From Ilumatobacteraceae bacterium (lineage in GTDB: Bacteria > Actinomycetota > Acidimicrobiia > Acidimicrobiales > Ilumatobacteraceae): DNA of 32,805 nucleotides. The stretch lies in contig JANYKU010000123.1 in the NCBI GenBank assembly GCA_025358075.1, positions 1-32,805 of the forward strand, written 5' to 3'. Positions 3,953 to 25,371 of the stretch are shown in pieces (position 1 is the first letter of the stretch; every line of letters starts with the position of its first letter). The notes under the pieces are model-generated. The model did not search any database and was not told the origin of the DNA. It was given only the letters and a program-made list of their open reading frames with translations. Made by a program: the position numbers and the translations under genes.

Positions 3953-5092
3953 CTACCCGTTCAACTGCTCGATCACGATCCAAGCGTTGATCGCCGCAGC
4001 CGTTGGCTGGCCGCCGATCGTGCCGTCCAAGGTCACAGCTCCGCCGCCGGACAAGCCCGACGACAGGCTCGCGATCGTCACAACGTCTCCACCGACTAGT
4101 GCGAGCAGCCCACTGCCTACGTTCGGCGTTCTGCCGTGGCCACCGAACACAAGAACATCGCCAGTCGGGACTGAGCCATTCCTGAGGATCGAAATCTGAT
4201 TCTCCTCGACGCCGATCACGCCGAAGGTCACGCGGTACACGCCACCCGTTGGCACCGCGAACGACGATCCGCCAGCCACGAAGGCGATTCCGCCGTTCGA
4301 AATGCCAGCGGTGCTGAAGGTGATTGCCTGACCGGTCAGCACCGACTCATCCGCCGTGTTATAGGCGTAGAGGTACACGAATCCGGCGGGTCCGGCGCTC
4401 GTGCCGTCAGCTCCTCGAAGACCACGCTCACCGGCGTCACCCTTGGCACCGGCGTCACCCTCTACACCAGGATCACCCTTGACACCAGCATCACCCTGTA
4501 CACCAGCATCACCCTTGACGCCAGCATCACCCGGAGCGCCATCGGTTCCGTCGAGCCCCTGAGAGCCGGCCGGTCCTTGCTGTCCGAACGGGCCAGCGGG
4601 GCCAGTCGCTCCGCCAACAGGAGCCGGTGCGTAGTACCCGATCAGGTCCAGCACCACGTGCACGGTTCCTTTGAGGTTGTACAGGCGCACCGAATGATCG
4701 TTGTGGACGGGCACCGTGGCGCTGTTGGCGACCGCACCTGCTGACGACCAGTTGATGGTGGAGGTGGTCGGGCGGTTGTCGCCTGTCGGGTACATCGTCA
4801 GGAATGAGGCCTCCGTGCCATCGACGACCGTGACATTTACGGCGACAGCCGTTGCATCGTCGGGGAGACCAGGTACGACCACATCGAGGGTGCCGGCCAG
4901 ATCGAGTGGTGTGCCCGTCCCCTCTCTGGTGTCGAGCACTCGTCGCGTCGTCACGCCATGAAATGCCGTCACCGAGGCAGGATCCGATGGTTCAGCCAGC
5001 AGAGCGCCGCCACCCGCCAAAGCTGCAGCACCGACCACGGCAGCGATAAAACGCCACTGCCGGAGCACTGGGGGTAGTACGGATCGGTTCAT
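3953..5092 (-). CDS. Secreted collagen-like protein with C1q/BclA-like C-terminal domain
   Basis: This 379-residue predicted extracellular protein starts at ATG 5092-5090 after an AAGGAG-type RBS; an upstream extension is open but has no RBS. Order: a signal peptide or membrane anchor (FIAAVVGAAALAGG, about 14-32); an actinobacterial beta-sandwich domain, about 45-165, with the signature RRVLDTREGTG ... AVAVNVTVVDGTEASFLTMYP ... NLKGTVHVVLDLIGYYAP; about 25 Gly-X-Y triplets including a six-residue GDAGVK-like repeat; then a C-terminal domain of about 140 residues. That domain matches the C1q/TNF-like fold of the Bacillus exosporium protein BclA (start FVYLYAYNT, middle GGVYRVTFGVIG, end AWIVIEQLNG). 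Such heads trimerise and collagen-like stalks follow. A likely role is a surface fibre or adhesin (inference). It has a paralogue at 13041-14048 with the head domain permuted. It is divergent from the multicopper oxidase gene. Confidence 0.85.
   Translation of the reverse strand: MNRSVLPPVLRQWRFIAAVVGAAALAGGGALLAEPSDPASVTAFHGVTTRRVLDTREGTGTPLDLAGTLDVVVPGLPDDATAVAVNVTVVDGTEASFLTMYPTGDNRPTTSTINWSSAGAVANSATVPVHNDHSVRLYNLKGTVHVVLDLIGYYAPAPVGGATGPAGPFGQQGPAGSQGLDGTDGAPGDAGVKGDAGVQGDAGVKGDPGVEGDAGAKGDAGERGLRGADGTSAGPAGFVYLYAYNTADESVLTGQAITFSTAGISNGGIAFVAGGSSFAVPTGGVYRVTFGVIGVEENQISILRNGSVPTGDVLVFGGHGRTPNVGSGLLALVGGDVVTIASLSSGLSGGGAVTLDGTIGGQPTAAAINAWIVIEQLNG
4428..4532 (-). repeat. 18-bp tandem repeats encoding GDAGVK-type collagen triplets
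   Basis: About six imperfect 18-bp units, of the form CACCAGCATCACCCTTGA on the plus strand, encode GDAGVK, GDAGVQ, GDAGVK, GDPGVE, GDAGAK and GDAGER on the minus strand. The units keep frame, so slippage would lengthen or shorten the collagen-like stalk without breaking the gene. Confidence 0.8.
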
Positions 5093-5371
5093 TGGGGGGC
5101 TCCTTGCCGTGAAGGGATTTCTGCGAACGCGTTCAACGTCGCTGCTTGGAACCCGTAACAAGCAGGCCGAACGTCTGGCGTCAACGTTCATTTGCGCATG
5201 TCGGTTAGCACCAATCCGCGCCCCGCTCGAGTAGTTCTTCCGGCACGGACCATCGGCGAACAACTTGACGTCGACGGAGGACAAAAGCCCCTGGAGTCGT
5301 GGACTTCCGCGGACTTTGACTGGAACCGTTGCGCGCGAAGCGTCACAGGACGATCACTGGGAGGAACGGAA
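5093..5371. promoter_or_regulatory. Divergent intergenic region between collagen-like gene and multicopper oxidase
   Basis: This 279-bp region should hold promoters for both genes. It contains the RBS of each: AAGGAGC-type on the minus strand near 5098-5105, and GGAGGAA at 5360-5366 on the plus strand. It also has a perfect 10-bp palindrome GAACGCGTTC (5125-5134) and a 7-bp inverted repeat CTGCTTG/CAAGCAG (5142-5148 and 5159-5165), which are candidate regulator sites. Both frames remain open through much of it, but without start signals or recognisable domains. I could not place -35/-10 boxes with confidence. Confidence 0.4.
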
Positions 5372-8300
5372 ATGAGCGGAAAAGTTTCTAGGAAGGTGTG
5401 GGCATTGCTCGGCGCCTTCGGGATGGTTCTGACGACTGGGGTCTTAGCGATACCGTCGGCAAGCACTGCGAAGGTCGCGGCGGCTGCGCCGACGTTCCTT
5501 CCAAACGACCCGACAAAGGTGCCACACTATTTTGGTCCATATTCGAACTGGGCCAACAGTCCTCAGGTGCTCGCCGACGCGATCGTCACGATCACGCCGC
5601 AACCACTTGACCCCGGCACGGGCGCGACAGCGACGGCCACGGTGGCTCCCAAGACGGGCGCCATCACTGCGATCACTGTCACCAGCCCGGGCTCCGGCTA
5701 CTTGGCGCCCCCGGCCGTCACGATCGCCGCCCCAGGCGTGACAATCACGTCAGCAGCCGCAGCGACGGCTGTGATCTCCAGCGGTGCCATCTCGAGCATC
5801 GCAGTCGACCAGGCAGGCTTCGGCTTCACGGCCCCGTCGGTCGCGATCACGCGTCAGTTGCTTGATACCACCGGCGCCGGCGCTACGGCGACTGCGAGTG
5901 GTGGCGTCGATAGTGCCACCTTGGTGAGCGGCGGGGTCTACGAGATCCAGCCGATTGTCCAGTTCGGCCTGCCAATCGACCCCCTCGGGACGCGGGCAAC
6001 CGGGACGGCGACGATGGTGTCGCTCGACCCCCTGGCCACAATTCCCACATTCACCATCAGCGAAATCACCGTTGTAGATCCGGGCTCCGGGTACGCCACC
6101 GCTCCGGTCGTCAACATCTTTGACGGCAGTCTCACGGTAAACGCCCCGACTCCCGCCGTCGTTACGACCACGATCGACATCGGCAAGATCAACATCACGG
6201 CCGGCGGCTCTCTGTACACCCTCGCGCCTGACGTAACGATCACTGATGCCGCCATCCTCGGCGTCGGCGGCACCGGTGACGGTGCCCTCGCCACGGCGAC
6301 GGTTGCCCTCGCAGGCGCAGTCACCCAGATCAACGTCACGACTCAAGGCGCCGGCTACCTGACGCCGGGCCTCAAGAAGTTCGTCGACACGCTCCCCGGC
6401 CTTGGAGCACCGACGGGGACCCCACAAACTTCGAGCAACTACATCCCGGTCGCGGTTGCCGATCAAGCCACGTATCCCGGTTCTGACTACTACATGATCG
6501 GGCTGGTCCAGTATCGCCACAAGTTCGCCGCACAACTTCCGGCGACCCTACTGCGCGGATATGTTCAGCTCTCCGCCACTCCGACGGCATTCCCGCTGAT
6601 CAACGCCAACCTCGACCCAAGCCTTTCAGGGCTTCCTTACGTCCAGTCCCACCTGCCGGACGGCACTGTGGTCTGGGGCACGCCTGTATTTCTTCCGGAC
6701 GGCACCCGGGCGTACGGCATGGACTTGCCGCGTTACCTCGGCCCGACGATCGTCGCCAACAAAGACGTTCCGGTGCGAGTCCTGTTCCGTAACCTGCTCC
6801 CCAATGGTGCGGCGGGCGATCTGTTCCTGCCAACAGACACCACGCTGATGGGTTCCGGTACCGGTCCAGACGCGTTCCCCATGGATGGAAACGGCGTCAA
6901 TCTGCCGACGCAACTGGATGCCAACGGCGTGCCGTTCCCTATGGCGGTCGACAAGGGCCTCGTCACAGACGGCGTGCGCAACCCGATGTGCAACAACACC
7001 CCCAAGGACCCGACCTGTTACTCAGAGAACCGGGCCACCTTGCATCTGCACGGTGGTGTCACTCCATGGATCAGCGACGGTACACCTCACCAATGGACCA
7101 CCCCTGCCGGTGACGCCAGCAACTATCCCAAGGGCGTCAGCGTCAGCAACGTGCCCGACATGCCGGCTCCCGGTCCAGGTGCGGAAACCTTCTTCTACAC
7201 CAACCAGCAGAGCGCCCGATTGATGTTCTACCACGATCATGCATGGGGTATCACCCGCTTGAACGTGTATGCGGGTGAGGCGGCCGGTTATGTGGTCACC
7301 GACCCGATGGAGCAGAGCCTGATCGGCACTGGCGGCGCGCTCGCCGGCCTCGGCACTGGCACCCCGCTAATCATCCAGGACAAGACCTTCGTTCCTGACA
7401 ACATCGCTCAGACCGATCCGACGTGGAATGCCGCCGCGTGGGGTGGCACCGGCAGTTTGTGGACCCCCCACGTTTACATGCCGGCCCAAAACCCGGGGAG
7501 TCCCACGGGCATGAGCGCCTTTGGACGCTGGATGTACGGCCCATGGTTCTGGCCACCGGCCAGGGACGTCGTGCACCCGCCAATCGCCAACCCCTACTAC
7601 GACGCTTTCTGTGACCCGGCCACAGGGCAGACCGCTCCAATTGCCCCTGCTGTTGTCGGCGACCCCTGCGAGCCGCAGTTGATCCCGGCGACACCGAATA
7701 TCTCAGTCGGTATGGAAGCCTTCAATGACACACCCATCGTCAATGGCACGGCCTACCCGACCACCACGGTGAACCCGACGGCCTACCGCTACCGCATCCT
7801 CAACGCAGCCAACGACCGCTTCTGGAACCTTTCGTGGTACGTGGCCGACCCGAGGACAGGGACGCTCAGCGAAGTCGCCCTCAAGCCGGCGGAAGTCGCC
7901 GCAGCCCAGACCGACCCGGTCGTCTTCCCGACGCCCGACACCACCTGGAGCCCGAAGGGCCCGAGCTGGGTTCAGATCGGCACCGAGGGCGGGTTCCTAC
8001 CGGCCCCCGTCATCGTGCCGGCTCACGAGACCACGTGGATCATGGACCCGACCCGCTTCGACGTCGGTAACGTCGATCAGCACTCACTGTTGCTGGCCCC
8101 TGCCGAGCGAGCCGACGTGATCGTCGACTTCTCCCAGTTCCGCGGCAAGACCCTGATCCTGTACAACGACGCCCCCGCCGCATTCCCGGCACGCGTCCCC
8201 GGCTACGACTACTACACCGGCGGCCCTGACCTGACCCCATCAGGCGCGCCGACCACCTTGCCCGGCTACGGCCCCAACACCCGCACCATCATGCAGGTCA

Positions 8301-10582
8301 AGGTTGCAGTTGGAACAGGCGCTCCGGTCGCATTCGACAAGCCCAACACGACCGCTGACCGCATGGGCGCTCTAGTTGCAGCGTTCACCCATCACACCGC
8401 GTTGGCCGGCAACACACTCGGCCTACCCGTCGGCGCACCCGCCGGCGTGTTCGAGGCGTCGCAGGATCCGATCATCGTCGGCCAGGCCGCTTACAACACG
8501 GCCTACGGTTCGAACTTCGCAGCCAGCGGCTGGTGCAACAGCCCGACCACCCCCAGCGCCCAGTGCGACGGGTTTGCCCGGGTCCAGGAGCAGAGTTTCG
8601 CTCCTACCCCTCCCGATACGACCCCGATGTTCAAGTTCAAGTTCGACGGCCTCGGGACGGCTCCGGCCGACCCCGCCGTGGCAAAACCACGGTTGGCAAT
8701 CCCGTTCGAGCCCAAGGGCATGCATGACGAGATGAACTCGGCCAACTTCGACGAGTATGGGCGTATGACCGCCAACATGGGTCTTGAAGCGCCCGGTGCC
8801 ACACCGCTACTGCAGAACATCATCCTGTTCCCCTACGTGAACCCGCCAACCGAGCGGCCACTCGACTCGACAGGGATGCCAAGCAGCCTCAAGGTGACAC
8901 CAATCTCCGTCGAGACGGACGGAACGCAGATCTGGAAGATAACTCACAACGGGGTCGACACGCACCCGATCCACTTCCACCTCTACGACGTCCAGATCCT
9001 CAACAGGGTCACGTGGGACAACATCATCATCCCGCCGGAACCGACTGAGCTCGGTTGGAAGGACACCGTGCGAGTCAGCCCGCTGGAGGACACAATCGTC
9101 GCACTTCGCCCGATCGTGCCAACCCTTCCGTTCGCCGTGCCCGACAGCGTTCGCCCGCTGAACCCGTCGTTGCCGCTTGGCGCGAGGGGCGACGTGGCCG
9201 GCCCGCTCGGGACCGAAGCCGGTTTCAACAACACCGACAACCTGGGCGACCCAATCGCGGCAATCGTCAACGTGGACTACAACTTCCGTTGGGAGTACGT
9301 CTTCCACTGCCACATCCTCAGCCATGAGGAAATGGACATGATGCGCCCCGTCGTAGTGGAAGTGAACTGGTCACTGCCAGCCGCACCAACTCTGGCGGCT
9401 CCTCCCCGACCAGGACCTGTCGTCCTGACGTGGACCGATGGAACACCCGTCAACTACCTCCAGCCGAGTACCTGGGCAAACCCCACCGTCGGCGCTGGGG
9501 GCAGCAACCCACAGGCTGAAATCGGCTTCCATGTCTGGCGGGCCCCGGTCGTCGCCGGTGTCACCGGTACGTTCGTGGACATCGGCAACACTCTGGCCAA
9601 CGTCGGCCTGACTTTCACCGACACCACTCTCACATTCGTCCCGACCACGACCTACGACTACAAGGTCAGTGCCCGGAACGTCGCCGGTGATACGTACTCG
9701 AGCACGACGCGGGTTGCAGGAATACCTACGACCACGACCGCCGTGACCAGCAGCGTCAACCCGTCGGGCGTCGGACAGAACGTGACATTCACTGCCACGG
9801 TCACTTCGACGACAGCCGGTGTGATAGCCGGAACGGTCCAGTTCCAGGACGGCGGCGTCAATCTCGGCGCACCAGTCGCACTCGCAGGTACCCCGGCGAC
9901 CGCCAGCTTCTCCACAACTAGCCTGGTGGGCGGCTCTCACTCGATCACCGCTGTCTACGCCGGCACCTCCTCCTTCTTCACCAGCACGAGCGCACCGCTC
10001 ACACAGGTGGTGAAGTTGGGGTCCACGACGGCCGTGACAAGCAACCGGCTTCCTTCGGGGAGTCCAGGACAGTTGGTGACGTTCACCGCAACGGTGACCA
10101 GCACGGTCGGCATTCCAGGCGGCACTGTCCGGTTCAACGTCGACGGCGTAAACGTCGGCAGTGCTCTGACGCTCAGCGCGCTGGGTACGGCAACGTACAC
10201 GACCAACACGCTGGTCGCAGGAAACCACAACGTCATTGCGGTGTACAACGGCAACCTCGTCTACATCGGCAGCACAAGCACGACGTTCATCCAGCCAATC
10301 AGGCTGGCGACGACGACTGCTGTGACGAGTAGTGGTAGCCCGTCTACCTTTGGCAACTCCGTGACCTTCACCGCAAGGGTGACTCCCACGGCGGCCACAG
10401 GAACGGTTCAGTTCACGGTCGACGGTGCCAACGTCGGCGGTCCCGTGGCGCTCGACCTAACCGGCCGGGCAACGCTGACAACCACCACCCTGGCAAGGGG
10501 GACTCGCACCATCGTGGGCATCTATAGCGGCTCTGCCAGCTACGGCACCAGCACTGGTACCCGCATCCAGATAGTGGTCTAA
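5372..10582 (+). CDS. Giant secreted CotA-like multicopper oxidase with GSGY repeats and Ig-like tail
   Basis: This 1,736-residue protein starts at ATG 5372 after GGAGGAA. Its signal peptide (about 8-32) implies export. Residues about 95-335 carry five copies of a motif like ITVTSPGSGYLAPPAVTI (101, 143, 232, 272, 320). The oxidase core (about 336-1340) follows CotA/bilirubin oxidase: KKFVDTLPG, HLHGGVTP (H558, H560), FYHDHAWGITRLNVYAG (H621, H623), GWKDTV, THPIHFHL (H1198, H1201, H1203) and FHCHILSHEEMDMMRP (H1312, C1313, H1314, H1318, axial M1323). All four copper sites are therefore present. The core is about twice the length of CotA (about 510 residues), with large insertions. A fibronectin-III-like domain (about 1345-1450) and three Ig-like repeats (about 1452, 1550 and 1646 to the end, each with VTFTATVT-type strands) complete it. 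It should oxidise phenols, bilirubin-like compounds or metals such as Mn(II) with reduction of O2; the substrate is not evident. No sortase or C-terminal anchor is seen. Confidence 0.93.
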   Translation: MSGKVSRKVWALLGAFGMVLTTGVLAIPSASTAKVAAAAPTFLPNDPTKVPHYFGPYSNWANSPQVLADAIVTITPQPLDPGTGATATATVAPKTGAITAITVTSPGSGYLAPPAVTIAAPGVTITSAAAATAVISSGAISSIAVDQAGFGFTAPSVAITRQLLDTTGAGATATASGGVDSATLVSGGVYEIQPIVQFGLPIDPLGTRATGTATMVSLDPLATIPTFTISEITVVDPGSGYATAPVVNIFDGSLTVNAPTPAVVTTTIDIGKINITAGGSLYTLAPDVTITDAAILGVGGTGDGALATATVALAGAVTQINVTTQGAGYLTPGLKKFVDTLPGLGAPTGTPQTSSNYIPVAVADQATYPGSDYYMIGLVQYRHKFAAQLPATLLRGYVQLSATPTAFPLINANLDPSLSGLPYVQSHLPDGTVVWGTPVFLPDGTRAYGMDLPRYLGPTIVANKDVPVRVLFRNLLPNGAAGDLFLPTDTTLMGSGTGPDAFPMDGNGVNLPTQLDANGVPFPMAVDKGLVTDGVRNPMCNNTPKDPTCYSENRATLHLHGGVTPWISDGTPHQWTTPAGDASNYPKGVSVSNVPDMPAPGPGAETFFYTNQQSARLMFYHDHAWGITRLNVYAGEAAGYVVTDPMEQSLIGTGGALAGLGTGTPLIIQDKTFVPDNIAQTDPTWNAAAWGGTGSLWTPHVYMPAQNPGSPTGMSAFGRWMYGPWFWPPARDVVHPPIANPYYDAFCDPATGQTAPIAPAVVGDPCEPQLIPATPNISVGMEAFNDTPIVNGTAYPTTTVNPTAYRYRILNAANDRFWNLSWYVADPRTGTLSEVALKPAEVAAAQTDPVVFPTPDTTWSPKGPSWVQIGTEGGFLPAPVIVPAHETTWIMDPTRFDVGNVDQHSLLLAPAERADVIVDFSQFRGKTLILYNDAPAAFPARVPGYDYYTGGPDLTPSGAPTTLPGYGPNTRTIMQVKVAVGTGAPVAFDKPNTTADRMGALVAAFTHHTALAGNTLGLPVGAPAGVFEASQDPIIVGQAAYNTAYGSNFAASGWCNSPTTPSAQCDGFARVQEQSFAPTPPDTTPMFKFKFDGLGTAPADPAVAKPRLAIPFEPKGMHDEMNSANFDEYGRMTANMGLEAPGATPLLQNIILFPYVNPPTERPLDSTGMPSSLKVTPISVETDGTQIWKITHNGVDTHPIHFHLYDVQILNRVTWDNIIIPPEPTELGWKDTVRVSPLEDTIVALRPIVPTLPFAVPDSVRPLNPSLPLGARGDVAGPLGTEAGFNNTDNLGDPIAAIVNVDYNFRWEYVFHCHILSHEEMDMMRPVVVEVNWSLPAAPTLAAPPRPGPVVLTWTDGTPVNYLQPSTWANPTVGAGGSNPQAEIGFHVWRAPVVAGVTGTFVDIGNTLANVGLTFTDTTLTFVPTTTYDYKVSARNVAGDTYSSTTRVAGIPTTTTAVTSSVNPSGVGQNVTFTATVTSTTAGVIAGTVQFQDGGVNLGAPVALAGTPATASFSTTSLVGGSHSITAVYAGTSSFFTSTSAPLTQVVKLGSTTAVTSNRLPSGSPGQLVTFTATVTSTVGIPGGTVRFNVDGVNVGSALTLSALGTATYTTNTLVAGNHNVIAVYNGNLVYIGSTSTTFIQPIRLATTTAVTSSGSPSTFGNSVTFTARVTPTAATGTVQFTVDGANVGGPVALDLTGRATLTTTTLARGTRTIVGIYSGSASYGTSTGTRIQIVV

Positions 10583-12977: not shown

Positions 12978-13014
12978 GCGAAGGGGCCCATCGTGATGAG
13001 ACGGGCCCCTTCGC
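12978..13014 (-). terminator. Strong hairpin terminator after the second collagen-like gene
   Basis: GCGAAGGGGCCC (12978-12989) and GGGCCCCTTCGC (13003-13014) form a perfect 12-bp stem with a 13-nt loop. On the minus strand it begins 27 bp after the TGA of the collagen-like gene. There is no U-tract, as is common in actinobacteria. The symmetry would allow it to act in both directions. Confidence 0.8.
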
Positions 13015-13040: not shown

Positions 13041-14048
13041 TCAGCCCCGGGCGCCGTAAACCAAAGCGCCGGAAGCCGGGTCGACTCCGTTCACCAGGAT
13101 TTCCAACTGGCTGGGCCCGTTGGCGATCACGGCGAAGGCGATCTTGTATACGCCGGTGGTAGCTATCTGGATCTCGGATCCTCCGGGGTCGGCGACGATG
13201 CCGGTCGCCTGGCCGACGGTGTCGAACGTAACTGCAGTGCCGGTAGCGAGAGTCTCGGGAACCGTGTTGTTTGCATATGCGAAGGCGCCGGGAGCGTCCA
13301 TCCGCTCGACCACGATCCACGCATTGAGCTCGACATCCGTGCCACCTCGCGACACGGTGCTCAACACCACCGAATCGGTACCGGTTGGGCCGGACGCTTC
13401 GTTCGCCAGAGTAACGCTGTCTCCGGCGACCAAGCTGAGCATCGCCGTTCCATCGTTCGTTTCTGGACCGGGGGTTGTGCCGTTGGTGCCGTTGGTGCCG
13501 TCAGTGCCGTTGGTGCCGTTGGTGCCGTTGGTGCCAGGTGCTCCAGGTGCGCCGCCGGCGGGACTCGGTGCGTAGTAGCCCATCAGGTCAACAACGACAT
13601 TGACGGTGCCCTTCAAGTTGAAGATCCGCATCGAGTGATCGGCGAGGATGTTGACTGTCGCGCTGTTCGCCACCGCTCCCGCGTCAGTCCAGTTGATGGT
13701 CGAGGCCAGCGGGCGGGTGTCGGTGGAGGGGTACAGCGTCAGGAACGAGCCCTCGGTGCCATCGACAGCCGTGACGTTGATCGAGACGGCCGTGGCATCA
13801 GTCGGGAGGCCGGGGATCACCACGTCAAACGTGTCGCCGACGCCGAGTGGCGTGCTCCTTGTCCCGACCTGACTGGCTGGTCGGGTATCGAGCAATCGGG
13901 TCGTCGTCATGGGGTGAAAGGCCATCGCAGTCGCCGAGTCGGAAGAGGCCGCCAGCAGCACGCCGCTACCCGCCAGTGCCGTCACGCCCACTACTGCGGC
14001 GAGAAAGCGCCACCGTCGAAGAACAGGGGGTAGTTGAATCGTGGTCAT
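13041..14048 (-). CDS. Secreted collagen-like paralogue with circularly permuted C1q/BclA-like domain
   Basis: This 335-residue protein starts at ATG 14048-14046 after AAGGAG. It shares with the 3953-5092 protein the N-terminus (PPVLRRWRFLAAVVG... signal or anchor), the beta-sandwich domain (TRLLDTRPAS, FDVVIPGLPTDATAVSINVT, EGSFLTLYPS, LKGTVNVVVDLMGYYAPSP) and a collagen-like segment, here only about nine triplets, mostly GTN. The C-terminal domain has the two halves of its paralogue in reverse order. First comes the half with AMLSLVAGDSVTLANEASG and ELNAWIVVERMD, which ends the other protein. Then comes the half with FAYANNTVPETL, TGVYKIAFAVIANG and LEILVNGV, which begins the domain in the other protein. 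It ends GALVYGARG. In a jelly-roll fold the two ends are adjacent, so the order change need not abolish folding. A strong terminator follows. Function: surface or fibre protein (inference). Confidence 0.85.
   Translation of the reverse strand: MTTIQLPPVLRRWRFLAAVVGVTALAGSGVLLAASSDSATAMAFHPMTTTRLLDTRPASQVGTRSTPLGVGDTFDVVIPGLPTDATAVSINVTAVDGTEGSFLTLYPSTDTRPLASTINWTDAGAVANSATVNILADHSMRIFNLKGTVNVVVDLMGYYAPSPAGGAPGAPGTNGTNGTNGTDGTNGTNGTTPGPETNDGTAMLSLVAGDSVTLANEASGPTGTDSVVLSTVSRGGTDVELNAWIVVERMDAPGAFAYANNTVPETLATGTAVTFDTVGQATGIVADPGGSEIQIATTGVYKIAFAVIANGPSQLEILVNGVDPASGALVYGARG
13482..13535 (-). repeat. 9-bp tandem repeats encoding GTN triplets
   Basis: Six contiguous 9-bp units, five GTTGGTGCC and one variant GTCAGTGCC at 13500-13508, encode GTN/GTD collagen-type triplets of the minus-strand gene. 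Copy-number change would stay in frame. Confidence 0.9.
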
Positions 14049-14104
14049 TGGTGTCTCCTTGCGCGGCTTGGATCCGTCGCTCCTTACAACCTTCGACCGC
14101 GGCC

Positions 14105-14161: not shown

Positions 14162-17100
14162 TCAACGCGTCGAAGCTGGTACCCGTGCCGCCGTTTGCTT
14201 TGACTTGGTTGTGTCATCGAGCACCGACGCATCGACATCGTTCCCAACACCAGCCGCCGCTTGTTCTTCGTCGAGACAGGCCCGAATCGCCCCGATCACC
14301 GCTGGATCGACAAGCGCGTGAGTCGTTGCTGCTTCGCCGAACTGCACGAGGCAACGGAACTGCTTCTCGTTGAGAAACTGATCGCCGGTCGAGTAGTGCG
14401 GGAACTGTGGATCTTGCAGACTGAACGCGACGAGGTCGTCCGGGAACCCGTCGCAGTCGTACAACACTGCGGCAATGTGGATGATCTTGCCGACGCCCTC
14501 GAGCTCGCCGTTCGGACCCTTGTACGTCACATCCAGCACGGTGTGGGCCGACGGTGGGCGCTCGGTGCCAGGGGCGGTCATGCGCGGCGAGCCGACGCGC
14601 ACGGAACCCGTTGTCGTCGCTGTCTGCCACGTCGACAGGGTGCCCGAGGTATCGGCGTCGCTGGAGAACGTCGTCCGCCACGATCGCAGTGGCCCGAGGT
14701 CGATCGTCGCCCCGACCTCCACTCGCGCCAGGTCGGCGGCCTGACGAAGGGTGGCATAACTACCGGGCGAATCGCCCGACGAGTCGACGCAGATGATCGT
14801 GCTACACCGGCGGCGGAGCAGTTCGACCAGCCCGAGGTTCTCGCGATGTCCGCCATCGGTGACGTAGAGGTGGTGGTCTTGCAGGTCGTACATCCCCAGG
14901 AGCTCTTTCAACATGTAGCTCAGCCGCACCCATGGGTAACGCACGGGGCCGTCCTCCTCGGTAGAGAGGTATCGCGGATTCGGATACCAGGTACCCAAGC
15001 GGAGGTTGAGCGCTGCCAGCAACGCCATCGTGCTGCCCTTGTCCATGCGGCCCATTGCCGGCGCGATGGCGGCACCCGACACGCTCATGCCGGCGGAGAC
15101 GGTTCCCTCGGCTCGCTTGGCTCGACGCGAGCCGAGCGCTTGCACCCACGTGCGCGTCGAGGCGCTGTACGACTGAACGGGCACCTGCTGGCCGAGCTTC
15201 CTGCGTTGGTCGGAGCGCCCGCTGGAAGTCGGTGCGACGTCATAGAGCACCACTTCGTCCGGACTCATCACGAAGCTGAGCGCCTTGACGCCCGAATTGG
15301 TGCGATGTTGCCGGGCAGCCGAGCAGCAGATCAGATGAGTGGGGCCGGGAGCACCGATGTATTCATCGAGCATCGGTTCGTCGCGTTGCTTGATCGGCCA
15401 CAACGGTCCGTCGACGTTCTTCGGGCCGCGCAGGCGCTTCGGCGCCCACTTCCGCCGCCGCGTCGTCGCGAACGCGCCGCGCAGACGGTTGCGGTACAGC
15501 GTGTGCAACGACCACCAGCGCGGGCACAGCAAGAAGTAGCCGACGCACAGCAAGCCGAGGAGCAACCCCCAGCCCAACCAGCCGTGGGCGACACGACCGA
15601 GCAAGAACACATTGCTCCCCATCGCCGACTCGGCAGCGATCTCGATGGCCAGCAGTCCGGCGCCGATCGCCAGCAACACGCCACCGAGCAGGGCCACACG
15701 GGGACCGAGCATCTTTCTGACCATACCGACCATGCTCACGACCGCGCCACCGCCGGAGACCACCGCCAACAACTTGCCGAACGTGGCGTGATCGACCAAC
15801 CAAGGATGAACCACGTCGAGCAACACCGGTATCACGACGAGCACGCCACCGGTCAGGAGCCCGGCCGCGGCGAGGCCCTTCGCGGCGGCCCGCACACGAG
15901 CTCGCCGGGTGGTGTTCCACTGAGCGAGGCTGAACGCGAAGAACACCGTTGCCAGACCGCCGAAGACGGCAGCCGGTCCGTAGAGCCGCCAGCTGATCGG
16001 GAACTGCCGGCCGGGAACGCTGACGAACACCCGGGCGCGTGTCGGTGAGTGCCGCATCAGTTCGTCTCCGACCGTGATGGCGACGTTCTTCGTGCACAGC
16101 GACGCCGGGAGATCGCCGTACTTCGACAGGTCGAGCACCGTGTGATCCGTCGCCCGCACGGTCTCCCCCGAAGCAGCAATGACCGCGTTGACCCGACATC
16201 CGATACCGCCGTACACGTACGAGGTGCTCGACAGCCTTCCGATCGGCCAAGCGATCACCAGCAACAATCCGAGCAGCAGGCACAGATGGATGGCCAGCAA
16301 CCCGACGGCGGTCAGCAACGATCCGGACAAGCCGCCGCGGCCCGTCTTCAGGAACTCGCGGCGCTGCTGCAGGTGGCGGAACAGCGAAGGCCGATCTGGC
16401 GCCGTCGACGCGTCGTCGAACGCGTCAGGCGGCACATCGTCGTAGTCCTCGGGCGAACCGATCACGCCCGACGGCCACAGCGCCGCGAATTCCTCGGTCG
16501 TCGGAGCCTCGAGCGCCGTCCCGCGGGCGATCCGCCATGCGCCGGCGGTGTACCCGCCCCCGGAGACCGATGCCAGGAACTTGGCACGGTCGAGGATTCC
16601 GTCGGTGCCGGTACAGGTCTCCAGAGGGCTTCCGTCCCCAGCGGTGCGCTCGAGCACTCCGAGTGCACCCAGGCTGATGCTCGCCGCCCGAATCCCTCCG
16701 CCGGAGCAACAAATGCCAAGGCCGCCCGGTACTTCTGCCCCACGCTCCACTCCATCCGACAACTGTCCGTGGAGACGACGGCGCGAGAACGCGGCGATCA
16801 ACGTGAACAGCAACAGCAGCCAGACGGTGGCGAACGACAAGACCTTGACCCAGGCGATCACCGGCAACACTCGAGTGGCGAACCAGCCGATGTTCGGAGT
16901 TCTCGCGTGCCCGGCGATTCCGGGTAACCCGATCGATGCGTGCTGGATGATGTTCTCGACGATGTCGGCCACTGCACCGATCAACGCGACCCACACCAAT
17001 CGACGCGTCGCGACCGACCGCGTCGTCAACCATGCCCGCTTCCACCACATTGCCCACAGCACGGTGAACACCACCAGGTTCGCCAGGGCGACGCCGTAGC

Positions 17101-17443
17101 CGATGGCGAGGTTGCGATGCAGATCGCCGAGGCCGGTCAGCTGGCAACCCAACGTTCGGGCCGCGCCGTGGCTGGTGATGTAGTCGACGAATCGAATCGG
17201 ATCGCTCGAAAAGGCGCTCGCCGTCTCGATGTTCGGGCAGTTCTGCACGCGCCGGAACACCAGCCACAGCCATGTGATCGGTACGAGGAACAACGAGAAC
17301 AGCGAGGCCAGCCACATCCACCAGTTCCAGTTCGAGCCCGCCCCGAAAGCGGCCAGACGGCGCCGCGCGCCGACCAGCGAAAACTTCGATCGGTTCCACT
17401 TGACGGGTGTGGAAACCTCGATTGGTTCGTCAACATCAGACAT
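14162..17443 (-). CDS. Membrane-embedded patatin-like phospholipase (PNPLA domain split by transmembrane segments)
   Basis: This 1,093-residue protein is predicted to hydrolyse acyl esters of phospholipids or other lipids with a Ser-Asp dyad. Start ATG 17443 follows AAGGGGGAT. About four hydrophobic segments (near 38-62, 110-133, 146-165, 190-218) precede the first catalytic part: SGGGIRA (247-253, oxyanion loop) and SVSGGGY with nucleophile S294. A further five or six hydrophobic segments (about 375-400, 495-515, 535-560, 570-585, 590-615, 620-645) separate this from the second catalytic part, VTDGGHRENLGL, with the catalytic Asp at D863 in a DGG motif, and CSTIICVDSSGD. The elements appear in the patatin order but nearly 570 residues apart, against 100-200 in compact patatins. 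It lies downstream of phosphofructokinase on the same strand (90 bp gap). Substrate unknown; membrane lipid remodelling is inferred. Confidence 0.85.
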   Translation of the reverse strand: MSDVDEPIEVSTPVKWNRSKFSLVGARRRLAAFGAGSNWNWWMWLASLFSLFLVPITWLWLVFRRVQNCPNIETASAFSSDPIRFVDYITSHGAARTLGCQLTGLGDLHRNLAIGYGVALANLVVFTVLWAMWWKRAWLTTRSVATRRLVWVALIGAVADIVENIIQHASIGLPGIAGHARTPNIGWFATRVLPVIAWVKVLSFATVWLLLLFTLIAAFSRRRLHGQLSDGVERGAEVPGGLGICCSGGGIRAASISLGALGVLERTAGDGSPLETCTGTDGILDRAKFLASVSGGGYTAGAWRIARGTALEAPTTEEFAALWPSGVIGSPEDYDDVPPDAFDDASTAPDRPSLFRHLQQRREFLKTGRGGLSGSLLTAVGLLAIHLCLLLGLLLVIAWPIGRLSSTSYVYGGIGCRVNAVIAASGETVRATDHTVLDLSKYGDLPASLCTKNVAITVGDELMRHSPTRARVFVSVPGRQFPISWRLYGPAAVFGGLATVFFAFSLAQWNTTRRARVRAAAKGLAAAGLLTGGVLVVIPVLLDVVHPWLVDHATFGKLLAVVSGGGAVVSMVGMVRKMLGPRVALLGGVLLAIGAGLLAIEIAAESAMGSNVFLLGRVAHGWLGWGLLLGLLCVGYFLLCPRWWSLHTLYRNRLRGAFATTRRRKWAPKRLRGPKNVDGPLWPIKQRDEPMLDEYIGAPGPTHLICCSAARQHRTNSGVKALSFVMSPDEVVLYDVAPTSSGRSDQRRKLGQQVPVQSYSASTRTWVQALGSRRAKRAEGTVSAGMSVSGAAIAPAMGRMDKGSTMALLAALNLRLGTWYPNPRYLSTEEDGPVRYPWVRLSYMLKELLGMYDLQDHHLYVTDGGHRENLGLVELLRRRCSTIICVDSSGDSPGSYATLRQAADLARVEVGATIDLGPLRSWRTTFSSDADTSGTLSTWQTATTTGSVRVGSPRMTAPGTERPPSAHTVLDVTYKGPNGELEGVGKIIHIAAVLYDCDGFPDDLVAFSLQDPQFPHYSTGDQFLNEKQFRCLVQFGEAATTHALVDPAVIGAIRACLDEEQAAAGVGNDVDASVLDDTTKSKQTAARVPASTR

Positions 17444-19493: not shown

Positions 19494-20957
19494 GTGAACC
19501 GCCTCGCCGCGCCGTGCCCCGACGCCGAGAGCGCAGAGCACCAGCAGGCGGCTCACAAGACATCAGCCGATCAGTTCGCCACTCACATGAACGCGGCCGA
19601 CGCGCTGCTGTGGACCATCGAGCGCGATCCATGCCTGCGAAGCACCATCGTCGCCATCGCGTTTCTCGATCGCAGCCCCGACTGGGACCGGTTGAGCGCT
19701 CGCATCACCGAGGCCTGTGACTACATTCCCCGACTGCGCCAGCGAGTGGTCGCCGCGCCCTTGGGATTTGGTCCGCCGCGATGGGAGATGGACGACTACT
19801 TCGACATCAACTATCACCTCGGGCGCACACTTGCTCCGGAGCCTTGCGACCAACGGTCGGTGTTGGACATCGCCGGCCACATGGCGATGTCCGCCTTCGA
19901 CAAGGATCGCCCCCTGTGGGAGTTCGTGCTCGTCGAGGGGCTGAAGGGTGGCCACGCCGCGTTGATCCAGAAGGTGCACCACTCGATCACCGACGGCGTC
20001 GGCGGAATGAAGCTGGCCCGATTGCTGCTCGACGAGAAGCGCAACCCGGCGGCGACGAAGTCGCACGCCAAGGTGGTCGATTCGCAACACGTCGGCGGAC
20101 TGACTTCGGTTGCCGACTGGTTCGCCGGTGATCTGAGAACGGTTGCTTCGGCGTCACTGCGTGGCGCTCAGGCATTGCCCGGCGTTGCCGCCAAGATGGC
20201 CACAACGCCCGGCGAGCCGGTCATCACGATCGCTCGACACCTCCGCTCGATCGGCAAGCTCTTGGCTCCGGTGAGCACGCCACTCTCACCGATCATGACG
20301 CAGCGCGGGATGTCTCGCCGACTCGACACCATCGACATCCCAATCGATCAGCTGCTCGCGGCAGCCCACGCCGCTGACAGCTCGTTGAACGACGCATTCT
20401 TGGCCGGTATCGCCGGCGGCATGCGGGTATATCACGAGCGGCATGGTGCACCGGTCAGCCAGTTGCGGGTGACGATGCCGATCAACACGCGGCGATCCAG
20501 CGACCCGGCCGGGAGCAACCGCTTCGCCCCGGCACGATTCACCCTGCCCATCGCGACGGCTGACGTAGGTGATCGCATGCGCCAGCTGGGAGCACTGGCC
20601 CGCGGTTGGCGCTCCGAGCCCTCGCTGCCCCTCACCGATGTCATCGCCGGAGTCCTCAACACCTTGCCGGCGCCCGCCACTACGGCTCTCTTCGGCTCGA
20701 TGCTCAAAGCCATCGACTTCGTCGCCACCAACGTGCCGGGTCTGAAGCATCGCGCCTACTTGGCCGGCGCAGAGGTCGAGATGCAGTACGCCTTCGCCCC
20801 GGCCTCAGGGTCGGCGTTCAGCGTGGCCCTCATGTCGCACGTCGGTCTGTGTTGCATCGGCATCAACGCCGACACGTCTGCAGTACCGGACCCAGAGGTG
20901 TTGACGGCGTGCCTACGCGAAGGTTTTGACGAGGTCTTGTCAGTCGGGAGGAAATGA
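19494..20957 (+). CDS. WS/DGAT-type O-acyltransferase 1
   Basis: Predicted wax ester synthase/diacylglycerol acyltransferase family enzyme, which transfers an acyl group from acyl-CoA to an alcohol such as diacylglycerol or a long-chain alcohol. The active-site HHxxxDG appears as HHSITDG (H162, H163, D167, G168, counted from 19494). Other family marks are DRPLWEFVLVEGL, SLNDAFLAGIAGGMRVYH, VTMPINTRRSSD and FVATNVPG. The GTG at 19494 gives 487 residues. Family members usually begin a few residues before the DALLW-like helix, so ATG 19587 (456 residues) is equally or more likely; neither has a clear RBS. Its stop overlaps the next start by 4 bp (ATGA), so the two acyltransferases are translationally coupled. 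Confidence 0.92.
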   Translation: MNRLAAPCPDAESAEHQQAAHKTSADQFATHMNAADALLWTIERDPCLRSTIVAIAFLDRSPDWDRLSARITEACDYIPRLRQRVVAAPLGFGPPRWEMDDYFDINYHLGRTLAPEPCDQRSVLDIAGHMAMSAFDKDRPLWEFVLVEGLKGGHAALIQKVHHSITDGVGGMKLARLLLDEKRNPAATKSHAKVVDSQHVGGLTSVADWFAGDLRTVASASLRGAQALPGVAAKMATTPGEPVITIARHLRSIGKLLAPVSTPLSPIMTQRGMSRRLDTIDIPIDQLLAAAHAADSSLNDAFLAGIAGGMRVYHERHGAPVSQLRVTMPINTRRSSDPAGSNRFAPARFTLPIATADVGDRMRQLGALARGWRSEPSLPLTDVIAGVLNTLPAPATTALFGSMLKAIDFVATNVPGLKHRAYLAGAEVEMQYAFAPASGSAFSVALMSHVGLCCIGINADTSAVPDPEVLTACLREGFDEVLSVGRK

Positions 20958-22396
20958 TGTCCCAGCCAATGGGTCCGCTCGATGCGCTGTTCCTTCACGT
21001 GGAAGACGGCATCAGCCACATGCACATCGGCTCGTGCTCGATCTTCGAAGGACCGCCGCCGCCGATCGCCGACCTCACTGCGTTGATCGAGGGCAAGCTG
21101 CACCTGGTCGCCCGATATCGGCAGAAGGTGCGGTTCGTACCGGGCGGGCTCGGTCACCCGGTGTGGGTGGACGATCCACATTTCAACCTCGACTACCACG
21201 TTCGCCATTCGGCACTTCCGCCCCCCGGAACGGTGCAGGACCTCGAGAACCTGATGGGAAGGTTGATGTCGCACGAGCTCGACCGGCATCGCCCGCTGTG
21301 GGAGGTGTCGATGGTCGAAGGGTTGCCCGACGACCGTTGGGCGATGATCACCAAGGCCCACCACTGCATGGTCGACGGAGTGAGCGGCACCGACTTGATG
21401 GCGGTGCTTCTCGATCGCGATCCTGCCGCGGCCATGGTTGGCGTCGAGCCGTGGACTCCTGCTCCTGAACCGTCGGATTTCCAACTGACGGTTCAAGCAC
21501 TGAGCCGCCTCGGTGGCCGGCCTGCTCGTGAATTTCTGGCTCAGCCATTCGCTGGCCTGCATCCTCGAACCGCATGGAGCCGAGCGAAGTCCGTCGCAGC
21601 CGGGTTGCAGTCGTTCGGTGCCCGGCTCACCGCGCCGGGCAAGGTGGTCTCCGTCGAAGGCAGCATCGGACCGAACCGCCGGTGGGCGGCAGGTCGGTGC
21701 GCGTTCAGTGATGTGAAGGACATCCGCAGTGCCTTCGGCGGTTCGGTGAACGACGTCGTGTTGGCCGCGGTCACCGGCGCATTTCGCCGAGTGCTGATCG
21801 AACGCGGTGATCCGGTTGACGACGTGGTTCTCCGCTCCTTGGTTCCGGTCTCTGTTCGCCACGCAGACGACCACGCGTGGAACAACCAGGTGTCACTGAT
21901 CCTCGCGGACCTTCCGGTCGGGATCGCCGATCCGGTCGAACGTCTTCAGGCCGTCCAACATCAGATGCAAGAGCTGAAGGCGTCGCATCAAGTCACCGCC
22001 GGTGAGGCCGTGATCGCCACGGCCGAGTTCCTGCCCCCGATCTTGCTGTCGCTGGGTGCTCGTGCAGTGATGAGCGTCATGCGCAAGTCGCCGCAACGAA
22101 CCATCAACACCGTGACCACAAACGTCCCCGGTCCGCAGTTCCCGCTCTACGCACTGGGTCACGAGATGCTCGAGTATCTCCCCTTCGTTCCGCTGAGCGA
22201 GGGAATTCGCATCGGCGTGGCGATCTTGTCGTACAACGGTCGACTCACGTTCGGGGTCACGGGCGACTACGACACCGCCCCCGACGTGCACTTCATGGCC
22301 GAACAGATCGAAGCAGAGGTGAGGCGCCTTCGGGCCCGAGCCGGCAAGCCCAACACGACCAGGTCAGGTCGTCGTTCAAAGGAAATGGCGCGATGA
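20954..22396 (+). CDS. WS/DGAT-type O-acyltransferase 2
   Basis: A 480-residue paralogous acyltransferase of the WS/DGAT family. It starts at ATG 20954 after GGGAGGAA, with a second ATG directly after it. The beginning, MGPLDALFLHVEDGISHMHIG, is typical. The active site is HHCMVDG (H136, H137, D141, G142). Later family segments are HRPLWEVSMVEGLP, GSVNDVVLAAVTGAFR, RSLVPVSVR and TTNVPGPQFPLYALG, and LTFGVTGDYD near the C-terminus. Both tandem copies keep the catalytic residues, so they may act on different acceptors or successive positions. The stop overlaps the start of the transporter gene by ATGA. Confidence 0.95.
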   Translation: MMSQPMGPLDALFLHVEDGISHMHIGSCSIFEGPPPPIADLTALIEGKLHLVARYRQKVRFVPGGLGHPVWVDDPHFNLDYHVRHSALPPPGTVQDLENLMGRLMSHELDRHRPLWEVSMVEGLPDDRWAMITKAHHCMVDGVSGTDLMAVLLDRDPAAAMVGVEPWTPAPEPSDFQLTVQALSRLGGRPAREFLAQPFAGLHPRTAWSRAKSVAAGLQSFGARLTAPGKVVSVEGSIGPNRRWAAGRCAFSDVKDIRSAFGGSVNDVVLAAVTGAFRRVLIERGDPVDDVVLRSLVPVSVRHADDHAWNNQVSLILADLPVGIADPVERLQAVQHQMQELKASHQVTAGEAVIATAEFLPPILLSLGARAVMSVMRKSPQRTINTVTTNVPGPQFPLYALGHEMLEYLPFVPLSEGIRIGVAILSYNGRLTFGVTGDYDTAPDVHFMAEQIEAEVRRLRARAGKPNTTRSGRRSKEMAR

Positions 22397-25371
22397 GCGA
22401 ACTCTGGAACAAGACCGGACGGCTCCTCAGCCGCCGCACCGCAGCGACCCTCGTCGTCGTGTTGCTGGTGACCATCGGACTTGGGTTCGGCTTGAAACGG
22501 CTCGACTTCGCCACCGGTCAGAACAGTTACATCGACCCGTCCTCGCAAGTCGCCAAGGACAACGAGCGCTATCAGAACCTGTTCGGCGGCGAGAGCATGG
22601 TGGTGCTCTTCACCGTTCCCGAGGGCAGGACGATCGTCGATCTGTTCACGTCGGCGAACATCACACAGTTCGGCGAGATCGAAAAGCAGATGCTCACGAA
22701 CAAGGCGGTGCAGTCCGTCGTCTCGCCGCTCACCTTGCTGGTGTGGACGCAGGACCTCATCACCAAGGGCGTGGCGAGCGAGATCATCGCCCGCACGATC
22801 GCCCGCGATCCCGACCCCGCAGGGGCAGCGCTCCGCCAACAAGACGCGGTGATCACGACACTTCGACTCGGGGCTGCCGGCAAGCAGACGATGGACAATC
22901 CCGACTGGGTGAAGTTCCTCGCCTTCGGCAACGACGGCTACACGCTGAATGCTCAGAAGAAGCTCGTGGCTCCGGCCGATAGCGCGCTCGTCGTGCGCAA
23001 GGCTCTGCAAGCGTTCATTCCCGACGCTCGTCACGCCGTTCTCGCTGCCGTGCTCGTCGGCAACGCACCACTCGATCAGTTGTCGAAGGGTTCCGCCGCA
23101 GTACAAGACGCGCTTCGCAGCCGAACGTTCGAGAACGCGACCGTCACGATCACCGGCACCCCCACCTTCCTCACCGACATCAACAACTACCTGCAGGGCG
23201 GCATGCTGATCCTCGGCGGGATCGCCGTGCTCGTGATGATGGTCATCCTGCTCGTCGCCTTCAAGGTCCGTTGGCGTCTGCTGCCACTGCTGGGAATGGC
23301 AGTCGGGATCGCATGGGGCTTCGGTGCCTTCGGATTCACGGGCACCAAGCTCTCGCTCGTCACGATCGCCGGCCTCCCGATCCTGATCGGCCTCGGTATC
23401 GAATTCGCCATTCAGATCCAGAACCGCCTCGAGGAGGAGCGAAGTGTCGAACGTTCGGGCAGTCCCTCTGAAACGACATTGCGGCACATGGGCCCGCCAC
23501 TGGTCGCCGCGACCGTTGCGGCCGTCATCGCCTTCCTTACGGTGAAGATCTCCAAAGTGCCGATGGTTCAGGACTTCGGTGTCCTGCTGTCGATCGGCAT
23601 CGTCGCCCTACTGATCGCCGGCATCGTGATTCCGATCACCGTGATCGGGGCGCGCGAGCGGCGCTCGCCGACCACCAAGGAGCCTGTCGAGAGCTGGGTC
23701 GAGCGGACGGTCGACCGACTCGGGAGCCTGCCACGCCTCGCCGTGCTTCCGCTCGTGATCGTCGCGATCGGTTTGCCGGTGCTCGGCCTGTTCCTGGAGA
23801 GCGGGTCCAAGATCGAGAGCGATCCGATCAACTGGGCGAACCAGTCGAGCACCTCGATCAAGAACGCCCGCACCCTGGAGAAGGAAACAGGGTTCGCGAC
23901 GACGCTGGGCGTGTTCGTCGAGACGAACAGCGCGTCGTCGAACAGCATCTTCACCGATCAGATGGGTGCGTTCGTCGTCGATCTCGTCGCCCGGTCGTCG
24001 ACCGAGAACAAAGAGCTCGCCGGCGCTTCGAGCCTGGCGACCACCGTCGGTTGGCTGGCCGAGGTGCCGAAGACCACCCCATTGCCGCCGACAGGCCTCG
24101 ACATGCTGCAGGCATACAACGTCGCCCCGCCGGCGCTCAAGGGTCTACTCGTCGCCGACAACGGAAACGCCACGCAGGTGCTGTTCCAGGTTGGGCCGTC
24201 GTCGCTCAGTGAGCGTGCCGTCGTGCTCGACAAGGTTCACGCGGCCATCGTCGACCCGGGTCTCGGTGGCCTGTTGCCGGCAAAGGCCTCGGCGACCACC
24301 GGCGGGCTCGCCGTCGTGGGAGTCGGACTTCTCGGCAACATCACCGCCAATCGTGCGCAACTGACCATCGCCGCGTTGTTGCTCGTGGGCGCGTTCGTCG
24401 TCCTCCGCTACCGCGACCTCACGCGCGGGCTGCTGACCATGGTCCCCGTTCTCATCGCTGTCGGAACATCGGCGCTGCTCGTGAGACTGCTCGGCATCAC
24501 CCTCAGCCCGCTGTCGACGGTGAGTGGTCCGCTGGTCGTAGCGACCTGTGGCGAGTTCTCCGTGCTCTTGATAGCTCGATACGCGGAGGAACGTGAGCGC
24601 GGTCTCGATCCTGAGCTCAGCACCCACATGGCGGCGAAGCACACCGGGCGAGCCTTCTTCACGTCGGCCCTCACGACGCTGGGCGGGTTTGCGGTCTTGA
24701 TGTTCGCGTCGCTTCCGCTGCTCGCTGATTTCGGAACTGTCGTCACGATCAACATCGGTGTCGCGCTGTTGTCGGCACTCGTCGTCGTGCCACCGCTCGT
24801 CAAGGAGGCCGACCGCCGCGGTCTGCTGGCCATGGGTCCCGCAGGCACGCACGAGCATTCTCGCCGTCGCCGCGCCGTCACCGGCTGGGTCGGTGCCGCC
24901 GTCATCGCCGCGATCGGGCTCACCGTAACCGTCGTGTCGGTCAGGGATCACAAGACCGCCGCCGCAGCAGCGACCAGGGCCGAGGCGAGCATCGAGGCAC
25001 CGGCCACGATCCCGGCACCGACCACGACCATTCCGCGGCCGACGACGACGACACTTCCGCCAGGCCAGACCCTGCCGCCCGGTGAGACAGTTCCTGCCCC
25101 CGTCACGTTGCCGCCGGGACCGGCGGCACGACCGACCGGTCTTGTTGCCGGAATCTTCTATGACACCCTTGTGGGCGTGGGAGTCCAGCCGGGAGTCGCT
25201 CGCTGCGCGGCCGATGACCTGTTGGCGACCACGTCTGAACCCGACCTGATCGCCAACGGAATCGCCGCCGTCCCGCGGCCTGCCGAGATCAACACCTTGC
25301 TCGACACGTCGGCCAAACGATGTGGCGTGACTCAGGCCCAGCTCGACGCGGCCGCCGCCGCCGGCGGCTGA
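22393..25371 (+). CDS. RND-superfamily (MMPL/HpnN-like) lipid transporter
   Basis: A 992-residue inner-membrane protein built as two RND repeats: a first membrane helix (VVVLLVTIGLGFGL, about 20-36), a periplasmic domain, five helices (about 270-420), then a second helix (about 450-475), periplasmic domain and five more helices (about 655-840). Each fourth-helix region carries an acidic residue at the place of the proton-relay motif: GLGIEFAIQIQNRLEEE (E337), where MMPL proteins usually have Asp, and TCGEFSVLLIARYAEE in the second half. After the last helix come a Pro/Thr-rich linker (about 865-920) and a small domain with two cysteines (RCAADDLLA ... KRCGVTQAQL). MMPL/HpnN proteins move lipids outward using the proton gradient. 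Being coupled to two acyltransferases, it probably exports their product (inference). ATG 22393 follows AAAGGA. Confidence 0.92.
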   Translation: MSELWNKTGRLLSRRTAATLVVVLLVTIGLGFGLKRLDFATGQNSYIDPSSQVAKDNERYQNLFGGESMVVLFTVPEGRTIVDLFTSANITQFGEIEKQMLTNKAVQSVVSPLTLLVWTQDLITKGVASEIIARTIARDPDPAGAALRQQDAVITTLRLGAAGKQTMDNPDWVKFLAFGNDGYTLNAQKKLVAPADSALVVRKALQAFIPDARHAVLAAVLVGNAPLDQLSKGSAAVQDALRSRTFENATVTITGTPTFLTDINNYLQGGMLILGGIAVLVMMVILLVAFKVRWRLLPLLGMAVGIAWGFGAFGFTGTKLSLVTIAGLPILIGLGIEFAIQIQNRLEEERSVERSGSPSETTLRHMGPPLVAATVAAVIAFLTVKISKVPMVQDFGVLLSIGIVALLIAGIVIPITVIGARERRSPTTKEPVESWVERTVDRLGSLPRLAVLPLVIVAIGLPVLGLFLESGSKIESDPINWANQSSTSIKNARTLEKETGFATTLGVFVETNSASSNSIFTDQMGAFVVDLVARSSTENKELAGASSLATTVGWLAEVPKTTPLPPTGLDMLQAYNVAPPALKGLLVADNGNATQVLFQVGPSSLSERAVVLDKVHAAIVDPGLGGLLPAKASATTGGLAVVGVGLLGNITANRAQLTIAALLLVGAFVVLRYRDLTRGLLTMVPVLIAVGTSALLVRLLGITLSPLSTVSGPLVVATCGEFSVLLIARYAEERERGLDPELSTHMAAKHTGRAFFTSALTTLGGFAVLMFASLPLLADFGTVVTINIGVALLSALVVVPPLVKEADRRGLLAMGPAGTHEHSRRRRAVTGWVGAAVIAAIGLTVTVVSVRDHKTAAAAATRAEASIEAPATIPAPTTTIPRPTTTTLPPGQTLPPGETVPAPVTLPPGPAARPTGLVAGIFYDTLVGVGVQPGVARCAADDLLATTSEPDLIANGIAAVPRPAEINTLLDTSAKRCGVTQAQLDAAAAAGG

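Follow-up and report, generated by a model that had tools for sequence, protein, structure and literature searches.

The minus-strand gene at 13041-14048 of the window (the whole stretch of 32,805 nucleotides that was analysed) most likely codes for a secreted collagen-like stalk protein with a naturally circularly permuted BclA/C1q-type head (rough probability 0.78). The protein has 335 residues counted from the ATG at 14048, and consists, from the N- to the C-terminus, of a signal peptide, an N-terminal domain (NTD), a short Gly-X-Y stretch, and the two halves of the head, half B and half A, followed by the stop codon. Both halves are homologous to those of BclA-type heads and each is complete, but their order is exchanged: the strands run F-G-H and then A-E instead of passing collinearly from A to H. 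Circular permutation was also the reading of the original prediction, and it is supported here by the homology and completeness of the halves, the agreement of the predicted strands, and the A-B order of the relatives.

Gene structure and genomic context

The features of the permuted gene and of its paralogue are collected in Table 1. The limits given for the halves in the original prediction were right to within a few codons.

Table 1. Coordinates of the permuted gene, its flanking signals and its paralogue in the window
Feature	Position	Strand	Basis and remarks
Shine-Dalgarno-like AAGGAG	14055-14060	-	Direct reading; the ATG at 14048-14046 lies 6 nt downstream
Start codon, signal peptide/N-terminal hydrophobic segment and beta-type NTD	13569-14048	-	Comparison of the NTD with that of the paralogue
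Collagen-like Gly-X-Y stretch (GAPGAPGTNGTNGTNGTDGTNGTNGT), about 9 triplets	13479-13568	-	Pfam Collagen below cut-off
Half B (BclA/C1q jelly-roll strands F, G, H), first in the head; TTPGPETNDG...ELNAWIVVERMD	13296-13478	-	Homologous to 3956-4132
Half A (strands A to E), last in the head, ends the protein; APGAFAYANNT...GALVYGARG	13044-13295	-	Homologous to 4133-4393; BclA_C 1-72; 9h38 match
Strong hairpin, GC-rich stem	12978-13014	-	26 nt after the stop; MFE -49.2 for 81 nt, z -6.0
Canonical-order paralogue: signal peptide, NTD, Gly-X-Y, half A (4133-4393), half B (3956-4132)	3953-5092	-	

The gene stops at TGA 13043-13041, and no half B lies downstream of this stop; the strong hairpin is found there instead. 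The hairpin, which has no T-run and is not called by the T-run terminator rule, probably marks the end of the transcript, possibly as a T-less terminator.

The permuted gene and its paralogue are 9 kb apart, and outside the head halves their proteins are collinear, as had been proposed. The NTDs are identical at 104 of 155 positions (67%), while the heads are only 42% identical, and among the 55 other matches in the genome the NTD of the 3953 protein is the closest to that of the 13041 protein. The Gly-X-Y region of the paralogue is longer and scores above the Pfam Collagen cut-off (49.2 bits), whereas that of the 13041 protein reaches 15.6 bits; a stable triple helix is doubtful for the latter because its Gly-X-Y stretch is so short.

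The NTD part of the 13041 protein matched no Pfam family. This type of domain (LLDTR...INVTAV...STINW...VVVDLMGYYA) is secreted and beta-type and has 56 matches in the genome, namely 13569-14048, about 4610-5092, and 54 more elsewhere, often in tandem within long open frames of 500-1400 aa. No curated family covers this expanded surface module. Other genes of the window include one at 5192-10582 (plus strand), between the two collagen-like paralogues, for a multicopper-oxidase-like protein of 1796 aa that has three Big_3_5 Ig-like domains at its C-terminus. Directly upstream of the permuted gene, 14162-17443 (minus strand) codes for a 1093-aa membrane protein whose GGGIRAA and SVSGGGY motifs are reminiscent of patatin-type lipases; it has no Pfam match at 1e-4. 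In addition, two adjoining wax ester synthase/DGAT genes and an MMPL transporter gene follow one another at 19494-25371 (plus strand), with overlaps of 4 bases each.

Evidence for exchanged halves

When the 13041 head was searched against its own genome, query residues 71-152 matched 4133-4381 (E 3.7e-11, 41%) and residues 12-69 matched 3956-4132 (E 7.2e-6, 40%), so that the two matches on the 3953 gene are in crossed order. Each half is 42-44% identical to its counterpart in the 3953 head. The BLOSUM62 local score of half A was 157, with shuffles averaging 36 (z 19), and that of half B was 107, with an average of 30 (z 14); none of 2000 shuffles reached either score. The score of a collinear alignment of the whole 13041 and 3953 heads rose from 157 in the natural order to 259 once the halves were swapped. 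Consistent with this, positions 1-72 of Pfam BclA_C match the very end of the 13041 protein, whereas the 3953 protein matches positions 2-118 in order. These crossed matches and Pfam positions bear out the earlier claim of an A-B head in the 3953 protein and a B-A head in the 13041 protein, and the shuffle scores do the same for the homology of the two halves, each of which is complete. Neither protein attains the gathering score of PF18573 (38 bits; 26.6 bits for 13041, 21.5 for 3953), and judged by their sequences both heads are distant relatives of that family.

The same exchange was seen with queries from outside the genome. An actinobacterial A-B head (L029), used as an independent query, matched the 13041 protein with its residues 34-132 at 197-302 and then with residues 3-75 at 310-380, and crossed segments with this query were found in the 13041 protein only. 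Half A of the 13041 protein matches residues 14-87 of the F-BclA structure 9h38. A profile in B-A order met the solved head 9h38 in two segments, profile 52-130 on chain 11-90 and profile 5-51 on chain 98-146; this is the same swap as against the paralogue.

The cut between the halves is clean. Half A of the 13041 protein ends with ALVYGARG and the stop, and half B starts with G-TTPGPETNDG, whereas the uncut paralogue reads VLVFGGHG-RTPNVGSG at the equivalent site. At the other junction, APG stands between half B and half A of the 13041 protein, and GPAG precedes half A in the paralogue. Family residues are retained in both halves, and half B, which is not Gly-X-Y, carries the family signatures LxxxxGDxVTL, S-x-VxL and LNAWIVxE.

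Predicted fold

The two heads were modelled with AlphaFold2 as single chains. The input alignment for the B-A head combined the natural B-A head with natural sequences of relatives entered as separate A rows and B rows, and a separate alignment was made for the A-B head of the paralogue. The models had almost the same confidence, with pLDDT 82.4 and pTM 0.78 for the B-A head and pLDDT 82.2 and pTM 0.79 for the A-B head. Within half B of the 13041 head, strands were predicted at 5-16, 21-26, 37-39, and 53-59. When the B-A head is renumbered to A-B order, its strands (5-10, 14-16, 26-29, 33-35, 42-44, 48-59, 64-68, 78-80, 89-100, 105-110, 121-123, and 137-143) pair one to one with those of the A-B head (7-12, 16-18, 28-33, 36, 44-45, 51-59, 67-71, 82, 91-99, 104-109, 120-122, and 137-144). 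At the level of strand maps, the two models thus agree strand by strand after un-permuting, and the view of the original prediction that a permuted jelly roll can fold is in line with the pLDDT of 82 for both heads. These models suggest that the B-A head should fold as one domain.

In a Foldseek search, the A-B model matched F-BclA (E 5e-10, TM 0.80), BclA 1wck, and C1q proteins, while the B-A model had no match in the PDB at E <= 0.001. The latter result is expected if the topology differs, since a sequential aligner needs the same strand order.

Head order in relatives

All of the more than 90 related heads are A-B, including those of same-family proteins that share the NTD-collagen-head plan (G062, G014, G857, and G885). 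In a search of 396 genomes of the host phylum and 222 genomes of the host family with the B-A profile, the 13041 head gave the only full-length match, and all other clear heads in these genomes matched as A then B. Single A-B heads were found at all of 80 genome-contig loci and 2 viral loci, mostly from Bacillota and also from Bacteroidota, Pseudomonadota, Ignavibacteriota, and others. Similarly, every head seen in 50 genomes of Bacillota and other phyla was A-B. Strand A is where the stalk enters in all relatives examined. In the tree of heads, the 13041 head restored to A-B order was sister to the 3953 head, with support of 97/96 and long branches. The A-B order of all relatives and this sister placement indicate that A-B is ancestral and B-A is derived. 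On sequence grounds, the permuted head descends from a non-permuted ancestor and arose after the two paralogues of the window had diverged.

No second permutant or orthologue was found, and the B-A order is known from a single draft genome (193 contigs). Searches of genome contigs, plasmids, and phages gave no close relative of the 13041 protein. Some candidates were rejected. A viral contig match (L188) proved to be a phage-type protein in which an A-like stretch is followed by further sequence in ordinary order, and the majority of the hits from the first search for relatives (L006-L008, L010-L012, and L014) were chance matches in unrelated proteins. The longer B-A matches in Paenibacillus and Clostridium (profile 3-137 or 8-137) were collagen repeats and not a duplicated half B.

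Alternative explanations

Permuted profiles do run into collagen repeats elsewhere, as at loci L182-L185, and half B of the 13041 head might likewise be a chance or collagen-derived match that is not homologous to the C-terminal half. However, this has almost no probability given the z of 14 over its own shuffles, the family signatures in a stretch that is not Gly-X-Y, the crossed matches in the own genome, and the independent L029 query; the alignment scores rule out both chance similarity and a missing half. A wrongly joined contig, built from pieces of a normal A-B gene or of two genes, has to be weighed for a draft genome in which no orthologue confirms the order. Against such an artefact, both breakpoints are in frame, and the reading frame is open from the NTD through Gly-X-Y, half B, and half A to the stop. 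Repeats of at least 11 nt inside the gene are confined to the Gly-X-Y array, and words of the head recur elsewhere in the window up to a length of 13 nt, so repeat-driven misassembly is unlikely because the shared words are too short to mislead an assembler. The only other copy of the halves in the genome is the divergent 3953 head. We consider an error of assembly quite improbable.

The remaining explanations accept the order of the halves and concern the state of the head. The rearrangement may have broken the head and left a decaying gene with no folded head, in keeping with its single copy, its shortened collagen stretch, and a head identity far below that of the NTD. Nevertheless, there is no stop or frameshift, both halves show a GC distribution over codon positions typical of coding sequence (GC3 0.72 and 0.76), and dN is 0.58 and 0.48 for the halves against a saturated dS of about 1.0. 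With family residues retained, a confident predicted fold, and a Shine-Dalgarno-like site and hairpin in place, decay is very improbable. Alternatively, the change of order could favour exchange between subunits, so that half B pairs with half A of the neighbouring subunit in a domain-swapped trimer of chains that are not self-closed. In TNF-type trimers the edge strands E and F already contact neighbouring monomers (PMC6684607). The single-chain model, on the other hand, closes all strands with good confidence, and the six-residue linker between strand H and strand A is enough for neighbours in one sheet. Domain swapping is therefore an unlikely alternative to a self-closed permuted head.

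Possible origin and consequences

The end of strand H and the start of strand A are adjacent in the normal head, on the side of the stalk. Because the strands of TNF-type heads alternate in direction, these two points are at one end of the head and the E-F loop is at the other. In the permuted head, the old termini would be joined by a short loop (ERMD-APG-AFAY) and the new termini would have opened in the E-F loop. TNF-type heads are built of two sheets, A'AHCF and B'BGDE, and strands C and F line their trimer axis (PMC6224509). Joining H to A and opening E-F would keep the fold, while the stalk would move to the far end, onto an axis-lining strand. The collagen stalk would then enter where the apex used to be, and the face once turned to the stalk would point outwards. 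Since the E-F loop is opposite to the old termini, the 13041 head probably sits upside-down on its stalk and would offer a different surface to ligands. The B-A head would be expected to trimerise like its relatives, and by analogy with other bacterial collagen-like proteins the protein presumably has an adhesin-like or matrix role.

Natural circular permutants have been described for many folds; of the two main models for their origin, one is permutation by duplication (PMC3320104). For the 13041 head, we infer that the most likely route is the one of the original prediction, in which the head was duplicated in tandem (A-B-A-B) and the outer halves were then lost. The APG between half B and half A, compared with GPAG in the paralogue, fits this route and may be what is left of a junction between collagen and head, which would point to a second copy of the head. 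No A-B-A-B, B-A-B, or A-B-A intermediate was found among the loci and genomes examined, and this absence does not exclude duplication.

Heads of the C1q/TNF type occur widely as trimeric modules for recognition and trimerisation. The existence of a natural E-F permutant would demonstrate that new termini at the far end are compatible with this fold and that a head on a stalk can be inverted in the course of evolution. The 3953 paralogue would be an ideal non-permuted control for the effects of strand order on folding, trimerisation, and collagen nucleation. In agreement with the original prediction, which named no described natural permutant of this head, none of the C1q/TNF/BclA fold was found in the open-access papers searched. 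Tentatively, and at somewhat less than even odds, this may be the first natural permutant of a C1q/BclA/TNF-type head, with a cut at E-F that inverts a trimeric head, so that one genome shows both faces, one per paralogue.

Comparison with known systems

The heads of the C1q/TNF group (gC1q, cerebellin, TNF ligands) are jelly-roll sandwiches of strands A to H; the known members are trimeric and many have a collagen stalk. The members found here run from A to H starting at the stalk, in contrast to the F-G-H then A-E order of the 13041 head. The relation of swaposin to saposin is similar, in that two complete halves of one domain have exchanged their order (PMC3320104). The 13041 protein differs from swaposin in its fold, and here the exchange would alter the attachment of a stalk to a presumably trimeric head; no intermediates were seen. 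Another comparison is with the BclA C-terminal family (PF18573; B. anthracis BclA 1wck; B. thuringiensis F-BclA CTD 9h38), which has the same halves and predicted strands as the 13041 head and is C-terminal to a Gly-X-Y region, in the 13041 protein a short stretch below the Pfam Collagen cut-off. However, the order is A-B in that family and B-A in the 13041 head, where the stalk would join in the E-F loop, and Pfam BclA_C recognises only its half A. In addition, the 13041 head follows a different N-terminal domain, and its genome is high in GC, with A-B heads in relatives from the same phylum.
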